Origin: Rhodothermales bacterium | GTDB taxonomy: Bacteria > Bacteroidota > Rhodothermia > Rhodothermales > UBA10348 | Length of the DNA stretch: 64,000 bases | Assembly (NCBI GenBank): GCA_017643395.1 | Contig: JAEPNP010000001.1 | Span: forward strand, 1,137,806 to 1,201,805 | Direction: 5' to 3' | Shown: piece by piece, positions 18,926 to 23,667 of the stretch | Position numbering within the stretch: position 1 is the stretch's first letter | Layout of the letters: each line of letters opens with the position of its first letter | Position numbers and translations under genes: made by a program | Notes under the pieces: model-generated | The model's input: the letters and a program-made list of their open reading frames with translations, nothing else | Databases searched by the model: none | Told to the model about the DNA's origin: nothing

Positions 18926-18955
18926 TTGACACACATATCTCACACATGTTATTGT
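18926..18955 (+). promoter_or_regulatory. Candidate sigma-70-type promoter of the ImuB-DnaE2 operon
   Basis: A perfect -35 hexamer TTGACA (18926-18931), an 18-nt spacer, and TATTGT (18950-18955) as -10. It sits 41 nt before the GTG of the ImuB-like gene. The -10 lies inside the 20-bp inverted repeat described next. Confidence 0.55.
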
Positions 18956-18961
18956 ATGTGT
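18942..18961. promoter_or_regulatory. 20-bp inverted repeat overlapping the -10 (candidate SOS/LexA-type operator)
   Basis: Perfect arms ACACAT (18942-18947) and ATGTGT (18956-18961) with an 8-nt AT-rich spacer that contains the putative -10. Placement on the promoter of an SOS-type mutasome operon suggests repressor binding. The motif differs from the proteobacterial CTG-N10-CAG and the Bacillus GAAC-N4-GTTC boxes, so the repressor is inferred. Confidence 0.5.
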
Positions 18962-18995
18962 CCCACCTGCCCCAACGGGGCACAACACCCTATTC

Positions 18996-20192
18996 GTGGT
19001 CGGCTGTCTCACCATCAAGCAGTATCCCGCCTGGGCACTTTCCCTGGTCAAACGCTGTGACCCCACACGTGCCCTGATGGTGCAGGAAGACGCGCACATC
19101 ATCGCCGTAAATCGGCATGCGGTGCGGGCCGGAATCGAAACGGGCATGACAGCGGCCCGGGCGCGCTCGCTGTGCCCGGAGGCACTTCTTCTGATTCGCG
19201 ATGCGGTCTCCGAATACTGCGCGTGGGAGTACGTGGTCGAACACCTGCACCGCACCACGCCGTTCCTGGAAAGCAGTCAGCCGGTGGCGTGGTTCTCTGC
19301 GCGTCCCCGAGAGGTACGAGACACCGCACGGCATCTGCGAGCCTGTGTCGGGTTTGCACCCGACCGATCCACGGCCCACCTGGCTGCGGTGCGGTCCAAT
19401 CCCGGAGGCACGACAGTCGTGCGGCCCGAAGAGATGGAAGCGTTTCTGGATGCGTTCCCATCCCCTCTCTTGCTTGATGCCGGGTTCAGTGAGGACCTGG
19501 TTGACGGGCTTGAGCTGCTGGGATGCAGCACACTCGGTCCGGCACGCAAACTCAACAGCAGGCAGCTGAAGTTGGCGTTCGGCAAGGAAGGCGTTGCCCT
19601 CTACCCGCTCCTGCACCCCGGGGTATCCGGGCGCATCGGGGTCTACCACCCCCCTCCCTCCATCCGCAGCCACTTCGAATTGGAGGCCCCCTGCAGCCAG
19701 CCGGGGGACCTGATGCCCATCGTTTGTCAACTCAATGAGCGTGCGGCCCTGGCCATGAATGACCAGTTTGCCGGCCAGGTGCGCATCATCCTCCGGCCCG
19801 AGGGACGCGACCCGGTACACGGGTCCAGGGTGTTGCCACACCCAACCAGCCGAGCGGATACGCTGGAGCGGTATGGACTCCGCCTGGCCGGTGAGATGCT
19901 GCAGTCCCTGCATGTAGAGGCACGAAAGGCCCAGAGTCGCCCGATCGACATCGACCGGATAGACTATGTGTTGGCTAGCCTGATGACGGGCGACCTGGTG
20001 CAGGCGTCGCTGTTTGGTGAGCGGCTTCGCAAGGTGACGAGCGCCGTCGGTGAGGTGCATCGACGCTACCCAAACAGCATCAAGCGTGGGCTTGTACGCG
20101 CGGGAGCGCACTTTCATGAGGACCGGATCAGCCTGAGGACCTGGGAAGCCAGCGACACTTCCGGAAGTGCAAGGAGCACTGGAAGAGGATGA
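18996..20192 (+). CDS. imuB: ImuB-like catalytically inactive Y-family polymerase
   Basis: A 398-residue DinB/UmuC-fold protein, shorter than many ImuB proteins. The N-terminus VVGCLTIKQYPAWALSL takes the place of the D-x-D motif of active Y polymerases, and the usual DE pair is not seen around PFLESSQPVAWFS, so it is probably non-catalytic. GMTAARARSLCPE and RYGLRLAGEMLQSL match fingers and little-finger regions. Q336-ASLF340 near the C-terminus fits a beta-clamp-binding motif (QxxLF). In mutasomes ImuB bridges the clamp and the error-prone DnaE2. GTG 18996 directly precedes the conserved N-terminus. Its stop overlaps the next start (ATGA). No ImuA gene precedes it. Confidence 0.86.
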   Translation: MVGCLTIKQYPAWALSLVKRCDPTRALMVQEDAHIIAVNRHAVRAGIETGMTAARARSLCPEALLLIRDAVSEYCAWEYVVEHLHRTTPFLESSQPVAWFSARPREVRDTARHLRACVGFAPDRSTAHLAAVRSNPGGTTVVRPEEMEAFLDAFPSPLLLDAGFSEDLVDGLELLGCSTLGPARKLNSRQLKLAFGKEGVALYPLLHPGVSGRIGVYHPPPSIRSHFELEAPCSQPGDLMPIVCQLNERAALAMNDQFAGQVRIILRPEGRDPVHGSRVLPHPTSRADTLERYGLRLAGEMLQSLHVEARKAQSRPIDIDRIDYVLASLMTGDLVQASLFGERLRKVTSAVGEVHRRYPNSIKRGLVRAGAHFHEDRISLRTWEASDTSGSARSTGRG

Positions 20193-20428
20193 AGCGCCGG
20201 ACTGTACCTGTCGAAATCTGGTTTGATGGAAACCAGCCGGTCATCCTGCAGCGGGAAGGATGGGCAGAGCCGGTACACGAAGTCATCGAGCGCTGGGATG
20301 TACGCGGAAGGTGGTGGTCACAGGACACCCAACGTCACTACATGACCGTGCGTACCCAGCGAGGTACGTTTGAGGTTTGTGGTGACCGTCGCACGCAGAA
20401 ATGGGCGATTACAGGCACTTTTGACTGA
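20189..20428 (+). CDS. Small DUF6504-like protein between ImuB and DnaE2
   Basis: A 79-residue protein, rich in Trp and Arg: VEIWFDGNQPVILQREG, then VIERWDVRGRWWS and HYMTVRTQRGTFEVCGD. This pattern resembles the small DUF6504 protein found inside some ImuB-DnaE2 operons. It is coupled at both ends: ATGA overlap with ImuB and TGATG overlap with DnaE2, so the three are made together. It may be a mutasome accessory subunit; no biochemical role is known. Family assignment rests on context and motif resemblance. Confidence 0.7.
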   Translation: MKRRTVPVEIWFDGNQPVILQREGWAEPVHEVIERWDVRGRWWSQDTQRHYMTVRTQRGTFEVCGDRRTQKWAITGTFD

Positions 20429-23400
20429 TGTTTGCCCATCTGCATACCCGAAGCTGGTTTTCCTTCCAGGCAGCTGGGTCATCACCGGAAGCGTTGCCGG
20501 AAGCGGCAATCGCCCAAGGTGTCGGAGCGGTCGCGCTGACCGAACGACACGGGGTTTACGGCGTCGTACGTTTCCAGCGTGCCTGCCAGGAACTGGGCAT
20601 ACAGCACATTTTCGGAGCCGAGGTGCCGGTCGATGGCCGCGATCTCGTACTGCTGGCACAGAACAGGGAAGGCTACGCCAATATCTGCTGGTTGCTCACG
20701 CAGGCGCATCTGCGCTCGCGGGAAGAGCCGAGCGCCACCCTGGACGAGTTGGCCGAGCACTGCAGTGACGTCTTCTGCCTCACGGGCACGGAAGCGGGAC
20801 CTCTGTACCCCCTGATCGACGCATTCCAGCCCCGTGAGGCCGCACAGTGGGTACACACTCTGCATGACCTGTTTGGCGAGCGGCTTTCAATCGAGGTCAC
20901 GCACCAGCGGAGAAAGGGAGATGACCGCCGCCTTGCCCACCTCCTGCAGCTGGCCCGTCAGACCGGTGTGCCCCCGGTGGCCACGGGCGATGTACGCTAT
21001 GCCGTACCCGGCGACTACTGGCGCTATGACCTGCTGACATGCGCACGGCACGGCATCACGGTGTTTGACGACCACCCCGACCGGCCATGCAATGCCATGG
21101 CCTATCTGCAGCCGGAAGCGGAGTTGAAGCGCAGGGGCCTGCCGGCGGCGGCCATCCATCGGGCTGGAGAGATCGGGCAGATGTGCAAGGTGGACCTGAT
21201 ACCCGGACACATCATCCCGCCCGGCACCCGCCTTCCGGCCGGCAAAACGTCGGTGGAGGTCTTTCGGGAGCACGTGTTTGCGGCATTCGATCTGAAGTAC
21301 CCACCCGGTTCTGTGCATCGGGAGGCGGCCGAAGAGCGCCTGGCAAAGGAGGTGGGTGTCATCAGCGGGCTGGACGTGCAGGAGTTTTTCCTGGTTGTGC
21401 ATGAAGTGGTAGAGGAGGCGCGTCGGCGCGGTATTCGCTGCCTGGGGCGCGGATCTGCCGCAAACTCCATCGTCACCTATCTGCTGGGTATCACTGTGGT
21501 ATGCCCCATCGAACACAACCTGCTGTTCGAGCGCTTCTTGCACCGGGGCAGGAAGGGCACGCCGGACATCGACCTCGACTTCGACTCCAGCAGGCGACTC
21601 GAGATCGTGGAGTGGATGGAGGAGCGGTTCGGTGTGAACCACACAGGCATGGCGGCGACAATAGACCGCTATCTGACCAAGTCAGCTGTTCAGGATACCG
21701 CCAAAGCGCTCGGCTGGCCGGCAGAAATGGCCATCCAGATGTCCAAGGGGTGCGGGTACGGGCCTCCGGATGACGAGCATAACGCGGCCCATATTCGTAG
21801 CGTGGCCGGCGGGGATTCGCCGCTCGTGGAGACGCTGATCAAGGCATCAGCCAACCTGGTAGGCTGTCCGCGGCATCTGGGTCAGCACTCGGGTGGTATG
21901 GTGCTTACCCGGGACGCCATGCGCTACTTCACACCGCTTCAGGTGTCGGCGAACGGTGTGCGTGTGGTACAGTTTGACAAGGACGACCTGGAGTGGCTGG
22001 GGCTCGTCAAGCTGGATGTGCTGGGACTGCGCATGCTGGGAACGGTATCAGAGGCCACGGTGGTCGTGAATGACATGCGGCCTGCGGATGACCCGGTGGT
22101 GCTGGATGAGTTGCCGCTGAACGATCCCGACGTCTACGACATGATCTGTGAGGGTGATGTACTCGGGCTCTTCCAGATCGAATCGCCGGCTCAAATGAGC
22201 GCAGGCTCGCGCATCCAGTCACGCAGCATGCAGGATCTGATCAAGCAGATCTCGCTGGTGCGCCCAGGCCCTATTCAGGGGGGACTGATGCATCCGTTCA
22301 TTCGGCGACACCGGGGTCTTGAGAAGGTGCGCTACGACCATCCGATCCTGGAACGCATTCTGGAGGACACGTACGGGGTGATCATCTTCCAGGAGCAGGT
22401 TCTGGAAGTGGTGCACCAGTTTGCGGGATGGGACCTGGATCGGGCCGACTCCTTTCGCCGGCTGATGTCCAAATTCCGCGACCCGGTGGAGATGGAGTCG
22501 ATGCGGGACGGCTTTGTGCAATCGGCCATGGAAACGAATGATGTGCCGGAGCCGGTGGCGAACCGCGTGTTCGACCAGGTCTCCAAGTTCGTCGGCTATG
22601 GCTTCTGTCGGTCTCACGCAGCGTCATTTGCGCTGACGGTCTACCACAGTGCCTATCTGAAACGGCATCATCCCGAGGCCTTCTTTGCCGGCCTGATGCA
22701 GCACAGGCCGGGCATGTATGCCCAGATGACGCTGGAACAGGATGCGCGGCGACATGGCGTGCTCGTACTGGTGCCGGACATCAATGCGTCCGGGCTGCGC
22801 TTCCAGCTGGAACGGGTGGAGGGCAGATTGGCGATTCGCAAGCCGTTGACCTCCGTCAAGGGCGTACAGGAAACGCTGGCACAGGTCACGGTACTGGAGC
22901 GCGAAATGGGGGCGTTCTCCTCCATCGAAGACTTCTTCCACCGGGTGCCGGTGGACGAGAAGCAGCTCACCGCGCTGGTGCAGTCCGGGGCTTTTGACCT
23001 GTTGGAGGGCTCAAACCGCACGGCCTTGTTCAAGATGAAGGTGCTGCTTGAGCAGTACGAGGAGGGAGGAGGCACCGAGCAGATGACGCTGCTGGACACG
23101 ACGTCATTGCGTGCGGCCGACATTCCCGCACTGCCGGGCATTACGCTCAGAACCCGCCTGGAGTGGGACCTGAAAACGCACAGCGGGCCGCGGGTGCACC
23201 CTATGGTGGTGATCCGGAGAAGCCTGCGGTACAACGAGATTCGCTCGATCGAATTCGTGAAGCAGTTTGGTACCACACTGCCCTATGACGAACACAAGCC
23301 GCCGGTGGTGACCATTGCCGGACTGGTAATGTTCAGACAGCGTCCGGGTACTGCCAAGGGGACCATGTTCCTGTTTCTGGAAGACGAGTCGGCACACATA

Positions 23401-23667
23401 CAGTGTATCTGCAGGCCTGATGTGCGGGCGCGGTTTGAGGAGGAACTGCGGCAGAGTGCGCTCATCGTCAAGGGCAGGGTGCAGGTCACCGGACCCTGGC
23501 GGGGCATCATGGTCGATGAGGTTGTGACTCTCGGTGGGGTGATCGGAGGCTACAAGGGCCAGCACGGCGGTCCGACGTACGGCCGGGAGCATAGGGTGAC
23601 CGCCTTTGGCGAGCGGGCCGAACGATCGGATGCGAGGGTGGTGGAGGTGCGTGACGACGCGGGTTAA
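20428..23667 (+). CDS. dnaE2: Error-prone DNA polymerase III alpha subunit DnaE2
   Basis: A 1079-residue C-family polymerase, about 100 residues shorter than replicative DnaE. The PHP domain (FAHLHTRSWFSF to about residue 200) is followed by the palm, with catalytic acidic residues in TPDIDLDFD (residues 378-386) and the upstream GRGSAANSIVTYLLG loop. Fingers carry LVRPGPIQGG and IIFQEQVLEVVHQFAGW; FVGYGFCRSHAASFA is highly typical. The C-terminus has helix-hairpin-helix (VKGVQETL) and OB-fold regions (VTIAGLVMFRQRPGTAKGTMFLFLED). With ImuB it performs damage-induced mutagenic translesion synthesis. The TGATG overlap couples it to the DUF6504-like gene. Confidence 0.96.
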   Translation: MFAHLHTRSWFSFQAAGSSPEALPEAAIAQGVGAVALTERHGVYGVVRFQRACQELGIQHIFGAEVPVDGRDLVLLAQNREGYANICWLLTQAHLRSREEPSATLDELAEHCSDVFCLTGTEAGPLYPLIDAFQPREAAQWVHTLHDLFGERLSIEVTHQRRKGDDRRLAHLLQLARQTGVPPVATGDVRYAVPGDYWRYDLLTCARHGITVFDDHPDRPCNAMAYLQPEAELKRRGLPAAAIHRAGEIGQMCKVDLIPGHIIPPGTRLPAGKTSVEVFREHVFAAFDLKYPPGSVHREAAEERLAKEVGVISGLDVQEFFLVVHEVVEEARRRGIRCLGRGSAANSIVTYLLGITVVCPIEHNLLFERFLHRGRKGTPDIDLDFDSSRRLEIVEWMEERFGVNHTGMAATIDRYLTKSAVQDTAKALGWPAEMAIQMSKGCGYGPPDDEHNAAHIRSVAGGDSPLVETLIKASANLVGCPRHLGQHSGGMVLTRDAMRYFTPLQVSANGVRVVQFDKDDLEWLGLVKLDVLGLRMLGTVSEATVVVNDMRPADDPVVLDELPLNDPDVYDMICEGDVLGLFQIESPAQMSAGSRIQSRSMQDLIKQISLVRPGPIQGGLMHPFIRRHRGLEKVRYDHPILERILEDTYGVIIFQEQVLEVVHQFAGWDLDRADSFRRLMSKFRDPVEMESMRDGFVQSAMETNDVPEPVANRVFDQVSKFVGYGFCRSHAASFALTVYHSAYLKRHHPEAFFAGLMQHRPGMYAQMTLEQDARRHGVLVLVPDINASGLRFQLERVEGRLAIRKPLTSVKGVQETLAQVTVLEREMGAFSSIEDFFHRVPVDEKQLTALVQSGAFDLLEGSNRTALFKMKVLLEQYEEGGGTEQMTLLDTTSLRAADIPALPGITLRTRLEWDLKTHSGPRVHPMVVIRRSLRYNEIRSIEFVKQFGTTLPYDEHKPPVVTIAGLVMFRQRPGTAKGTMFLFLEDESAHIQCICRPDVRARFEEELRQSALIVKGRVQVTGPWRGIMVDEVVTLGGVIGGYKGQHGGPTYGREHRVTAFGERAERSDARVVEVRDDAG

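Follow-up and report, generated by a model that had tools for sequence, protein, structure and literature searches.

Three translationally coupled genes in a Rhodothermales bacterium very probably constitute a mutasome lacking ImuA, which would comprise an inactive Y-family polymerase (ImuY/iPolY), a standalone ImuB C-terminal domain (ImuB-C) and the polymerase DnaE2, act together with RecA and be controlled by LexA. The genes are located in a stretch of 64,000 nucleotides (assembly GCA_017643395.1, contig JAEPNP010000001.1), hereafter called the window, and occupy positions 18996-20192 (imuB-like, imuY), 20189-20428 (imuB-C) and 20428-23667 (dnaE2) of its forward strand. Their stop and start codons overlap (ATGA at 20189-20192, TGATG at 20426-20430), coupling the translation of all three. 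Direct reading of the same strand placed a promoter upstream of them, TTGACA-N18-TATTGT, with the -35 at 18926-18931 and the -10 at 18950-18955. The named relatives in this work were Rhodothermales metagenome genomes; TTGACA and the 18-nt spacer are kept in the imuB promoters of approximately ten family members, and relatives keep TAnnnT at the spacing of the -10. A preliminary description of the window had reported the same promoter and the same three coupled genes, and both are present in the sequence as it had described them.

The first gene has a GTG start and encodes a protein of 398 aa that matches PF00817 (IMS domain) and carries no fused ImuB-C. Its profile matches Y-family polymerases in the PDB, and Foldseek pairs its AlphaFold2 (AF2) model with Y-family structures at a best E of 1.2e-19. 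The active-site acids are absent: active relatives, among them the second Y-family polymerase of the same genome, carry HIDMDAFYASVE (HIDMDAF) and SLDE, whereas the imuB-like protein has CLTIKQYPAWALS and TTPFLE at these places. As judged from these motifs, the product is a catalytically dead Y-family polymerase. It also has a beta-clamp-binding motif, QASLF (residues 336-340, 20001-20015, forward strand), whose pattern Q..[LF]F is kept in 13/13 aligned homologues; the chain ends approximately 60 residues further on. Both the loss of the Y-polymerase acidic motif and the QASLF motif had been noticed in the preliminary description, and the comparison with active relatives and homologues bears them out. 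Deinococcus ImuY and an Abditibacteriota protein match the imuB-like protein at E 3e-13 to 4e-24, and canonical ImuB, at E 7e-6 or worse, is more distant from it.

The second gene answers directly the question of what the small DUF6504 protein is. Alignment and conservation identify its 79-aa product as a standalone ImuB-C, that is, the C-terminal domain of ImuB split off and encoded as a separate chain. PF20114 (DUF6504) was matched weakly by 6 of the 9 Rhodothermales homologues (best E 0.0027), while standalone proteins of 81 and 111 aa from Deinococcus and Abditibacteriota exceeded its cut-off; the DUF6504 label given to this protein earlier thus holds at the level of the family. The same domain was found at residues 538-607 and 432-504 of canonical, ImuA-linked ImuB proteins (Sphingomonas and Methylocella respectively). 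The AF2 model of the 79-aa protein has seven strands and no helix, is beta-barrel-like and reaches a predicted local distance difference test (pLDDT) score of 85.9. A Foldseek search of this model against the PDB gave nothing below E 0.8, which is consistent with the published view of ImuB-C as a beta-barrel of new fold (PMC12926913), a barrel without a close solved relative. A literature search on DUF6504 returned nothing relevant. The suggestion that the small protein might fill the role of ImuA is not borne out, as it is an all-beta homologue of the ImuB C-terminal domain and not of RecA or ImuA.

The third gene encodes the predicted error-prone C-family polymerase DnaE2 (1079 aa), with PHP, C-family polymerase, HHH and OB domains in Pfam and intact catalytic aspartates (PDIDLD, KLDVLG). 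It scores 835 bits against NF004225, short of the cut-off of 939. In a maximum-likelihood DnaE2 tree, the window protein grouped with Deinococcus, Thermus and Abditibacteriota (support 96/96), apart from the ImuA-linked DnaE2 proteins (97/97).

There is no imuA directly upstream of the operon; as the preliminary description had stated, that gene is lacking there, and the upstream position is taken by a divergent gene for a homocysteine S-methyltransferase family protein. The genome (4.5 Mb in 21 contigs, 98.4% complete) was searched for an imuA elsewhere. PF00154 found RecA as its sole match, and NF033429 found only the same RecA locus. NF033429 is insensitive as a lone test, staying below its cut-off even in Caulobacter, and for this reason a profile was built from five ImuA proteins; it matched RecA at E 6e-19 and nothing else in the genome, and in nearly every relative it matched RecA alone. 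An ImuA that has diverged and completes a canonical mutasome from another locus is very unlikely. The weakness of NF033429 and the approximately 2% of the genome that is missing leave some room for it, but the five-member profile, the family in which essentially RecA alone is found, the grouping of DnaE2 with the clade lacking ImuA, and published surveys describing genomes of the same architecture without imuA (PMC6511836, PMC12926913) all argue against it. By these searches imuA is absent from the 98.4%-complete genome, which supports the earlier proposal of a mutasome independent of ImuA, and RecA probably takes the place of ImuA.

A segment that may serve this purpose follows the clamp motif of the imuB-like protein. 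In mycobacterial ImuB, a RecA N-terminal-like (RecA-NT) segment immediately after the clamp motif holds ImuA' (PMC11791113). Here, the segment after the motif (RLRKVTSAVGEVHRRYPNSIKRG) fits mycobacterial RecA-NT in its position and in the spacing of its hydrophobic residues (PMC11791113). The putative RecA-NT-like segment comprises residues 343-366 (RLRKVTSAVGEVHRRYPNSIKRGL; 20022-20093, forward strand), and was delimited by position and hydrophobic pattern; VHRRYP is conserved in it.

The operator of the operon is predicted to be a direct repeat lying between the -35 and the -10 (ACACATATCTCACACATGTTA, 18931-18951, forward strand), where LexA would bind and from which DNA damage would induce expression. 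Its units, ACACATAT and ACACATGT, recur with an 11-bp period; the first, ACACATAT, lies at 18931-18938, and the second reads ACACATG (18942-18948). Relatives keep TTGACACACATATnnn(n)CACATgTTA between the -35 and the -10 of their imuB promoters, and a single shared motif, acACATATatTacAcATAT, emerged when the upstream regions of 27 lexA and 22 imuB genes were analysed by expectation-maximisation. A weight matrix made from 43 lexA/imuB promoters outside the genus put 18931-18951 at the top of the window with 26.0 bits (next unrelated site, 11.8). With a matrix made from lexA promoters only, the best matches in the window were at 18929-18951; they scored 14.6-16.1 bits, compared with a best of 18-20 and a mean of ~7 in 60 simulated strand scans. 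The pattern ACACATAT-N4-YACATR (ACACATATN4YACATR), whose Y and R were loosened from the published consensus with the window site in view, has one zero-mismatch site in the whole genome, in the imuB promoter. At ≤2 mismatches it occurs at 6 further places in the genome, a number similar to the 2-4 of the controls, and none of these places precedes an obvious repair gene. The 11-bp period is that of the LexA site of Balneolaeota, TTACACATATTTTWTACATA, a direct repeat proven by electrophoretic mobility shift assay (EMSA) (PMC7739468).

The preliminary description had proposed a non-canonical SOS box at this promoter. That an SOS-type operator is present agrees with our reading, but the element chosen for it was the wrong one: the predicted box is the conserved direct repeat, approximately 10 bases upstream, and is of a kind already known from a sister group. 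The element proposed was the inverted repeat ACACAT-N8-ATGTGT (18942-18961, forward strand), which is present without mismatch and does enclose the -10. The left arm of this repeat falls within the conserved element and its right arm outside it. Among 21 orthologous imuB promoters, the closest has 3 of the 12 positions mismatched, and two promoters from the same genus have 4 and 5. At ≤2 mismatches, 1.22 copies per 64 kb are expected by chance. An SOS operator formed by ACACAT-N8-ATGTGT, with the small protein standing in for ImuA, is extremely unlikely: the repeat covers the -10 without a mismatch and is the sole exact copy in the 4.5 Mb genome, but its right arm is missing from the two same-genus promoters and from each of the 21 orthologous promoters compared (3/12 mismatches or more), and the small protein is an ImuB-C homologue with no homology to RecA or ImuA. 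The recurrence at other SOS promoters and orthologous operons that had been envisaged for the repeat was not found. ACACAT-N8-ATGTGT was consequently rejected as an operator, on its single genome copy and on the lack of any orthologous promoter within 2 mismatches, and is best read, from its distribution, as partly coincidental. A simple dyad common to lexA and imuB, CACAT-N9-ATGTG, was suggestive and was discarded as too loose (60 sites at ≤1 mismatch vs. 24 in the reversed control); the direct-repeat motif performs better.

Some observations weigh against a LexA-controlled mutasome of the ImuY/ImuB-C/DnaE2 type. The 79-aa protein of the window itself falls below the Pfam threshold for DUF6504. 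The similarity between the tail of the imuB-like protein and the RecA N-terminus was not significant in pairwise or profile comparisons, and 11 of 100 column shuffles scored as high; because the similarity does not rise above the shuffles, docking on RecA is something that we infer. The motif match is moderate to weak at the genome's own lexA (14.5 bits) and recA (7.9 bits) promoters, and the assignment to LexA therefore leans on the relatives. The lexA gene (G000:C1, ~252 kb) is the only S24-peptidase gene found in the genome and encodes a protein of 210 aa with a LexA-like N-terminus; its upstream site is the variant ACACATGATACATGTATGTGA. This moderate resemblance between the lexA and imuB sites would also suit a repressor other than LexA acting on the conserved promoter element, as would an unrelated dyad found at recA and other repair promoters, which could point to a further damage regulator. 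We consider such a repressor unlikely, since the matrix made from lexA promoters only ranks the imuB site first in the 64 kb, the imuB motif equals the Balneolaeota LexA site proven by EMSA (PMC7739468), and lexA has no S24-peptidase competitor among the genes found. Separately, approximately three tandem copies of a GC-rich unit of ~240 bp (GAGCCCATCGCCCGTATCCGGCCCGACATGGAAAACGGGG...) were observed just upstream of lexA (L032:467-1140, G000:C1 ~251.2-251.9 kb), each of them with GTGTAAAAC/GTTTTACAC-like arms.

The following mechanism is proposed for the LexA-controlled mutasome. LexA bound to the direct-repeat box between the -35 and the -10 would block the promoter. Upon DNA damage, RecA filaments would form, LexA would cleave itself, and the three coupled genes would be expressed. 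DnaE2 would act as the error-prone bypass polymerase, and the system would be mutagenic in this organism. The dead Y-family protein would be an adaptor, which would hold the beta clamp through QASLF and whose C-terminal segment probably docks on RecA, in replacement of ImuA. The 79-aa ImuB-C barrel probably bridges to the PHP domain of DnaE2, by analogy with the mycobacterial model (PMC12926913).

The arrangement of the three genes varies among the relatives. In the own genus and in g5 and g6, imuB is immediately followed by imuB-C. In g10 (L125-L128), genes on both strands are inserted among imuB, imuB-C and dnaE2, so that the operon is broken with all three genes kept. Eight further genomes (G003, G004, G005, G008, G010, G012, G014 and G016; L129-L132, L180-L187) harbour imuB alone, with no imuB-C or dnaE2 in the flanks fetched; 6 of these 8 have a DnaE2 of the same clade at another locus, and the split dnaE2 of G003, G008 and G014 has a LexA-type box of its own (24.7-27.3 bits). 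With its coupled operons, loosened operons and separate boxed loci for imuB and dnaE2, this group lends itself to studies of cassette assembly. In one relative, an open reading frame starting MCGRIVNR lies directly after dnaE2 (L124:12143-12835) and looks by eye like SRAP/YedK (SOS-response-associated peptidase). Distant ImuB-like proteins (MIGYLYIQDFPAW...) were observed in family f4 and in Longimonas halophila (L024-L026, L134), with no recognisable imuB-C or dnaE2 nearby; the promoters of the distant genes at L024 and L025 have ACATATGTG-like sequences.

The dyad at the repair genes may be more novel than the mutasome operon. In most of the Rhodothermales examined, TGACA-N6-TGTCA (≤1 mismatch) lies upstream of recA, and many of these recA genes have a weak LexA motif or none. 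The longer form GTGACA-N6-TGTCAC has 71 exact sites, distributed over 28 of 41 genomes (0 in the reversed control). In the own genome it was found at recA (G000:C2:280451-280468), radA (L194), rmuC (L195) and mazG/ssb (L196), and in relatives at recR (L205), ruvB (L210), a gene for an sbcD-like nuclease (L207), tag (L218), DEDDh exonuclease genes (L217/L220/L224) and recA (L228). The half-site resembles that of the DriD consensus, ATACGAC-N7-GTCGTAT (PMC12340889), but the spacing is different; a literature search on GTGACA/TGTCAC with recA gave nothing relevant. It is possible that this dyad marks a second DNA-damage or recombination regulon apart from LexA, and it could open the way to an unknown damage-response regulator. 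We tentatively suggest, as an idea still on the doubtful side, that the damage response of the Rhodothermales might be split: LexA would control only its own gene and those of the mutagenic branch (imuB/imuY, imuB-C and dnaE2), and the error-free repair genes (recA, radA, rmuC, recR, ruvB, sbcD-like, tag, ssb/mazG) would be under an undescribed GTGACA-N6-TGTCAC regulator. The mutasome and the RecA that it is thought to need would then answer to separate regulators, in parallel to DdrO/IrrE vs. LexA in Deinococcus.

Compared with known systems, the operon is, as judged by homology, a Rhodothermales representative of a mutasome type without ImuA that has been described before, an assignment made on the placement of DnaE2 in the tree and on the greater closeness of the Y-family protein to ImuY than to canonical ImuB. 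Timinskas and Venclovas reported combinations of inactive PolY, standalone ImuB-C and DnaE2 without ImuA, with Kyrpidia tusciae as an example (PMC6511836), and the name DnaE2X-iPolY-ImuB-C-RecA, for a type with a split ImuB and RecA replacing ImuA, comes from a later survey (PMC12926913). The window operon has the composition of this type (an intact DnaE2 outside the ImuA-linked DnaE2A clade, a dead PolY with a clamp motif, a standalone ImuB-C and no imuA); at its putative RecA-NT motif, position and hydrophobic pattern agree with the type, and similarity to RecA N-termini does not rise above shuffles. In Deinococcus, lexA-imuY-imuB-C-dnaE2 operons encode an ImuB-C of 80 residues and have no imuA, and ultraviolet mutagenesis requires ImuY, DnaE2 and RecA (PMC8072749); the order imuY-imuB-C-dnaE2 was also found in Deinococcus sp. 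QL22 (L151), in D. deserti (L191) and on an Abditibacteriota plasmid. The Deinococcus operon shares with ours the dead Y-family protein, the DUF6504/ImuB-C protein, DnaE2, the lack of imuA and the control by LexA, which is predicted here; by contrast, lexA heads the operon in Deinococcus and lies elsewhere in our genome, the operator here is of the Balneolaeota type, and the proteins are just ~26-38% identical. The canonical ImuA-ImuB-DnaE2 mutasome (Caulobacter, Mycobacterium, Pseudomonas) likewise combines a dead ImuB carrying a clamp motif, DnaE2, SOS control and an ImuB-C domain, but there ImuA is present, ImuB-C is fused instead of forming a separate 79-aa protein, and DnaE2 belongs to another clade. 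As in the Balneolaeota LexA operator, ACACATAT is followed by four bases and YACATR with an 11-bp period, at the promoters of lexA and translesion polymerases; the host here is a member of the Rhodothermales, however, and its own lexA site is a variant. The main text of the later survey contains no occurrence of Rhodothermales (PMC12926913). The type without ImuA and dependent on RecA, which is regarded as ancestral to ImuA-ImuB-DnaE2, would be extended to the Rhodothermales, together with a clear predicted LexA operator.

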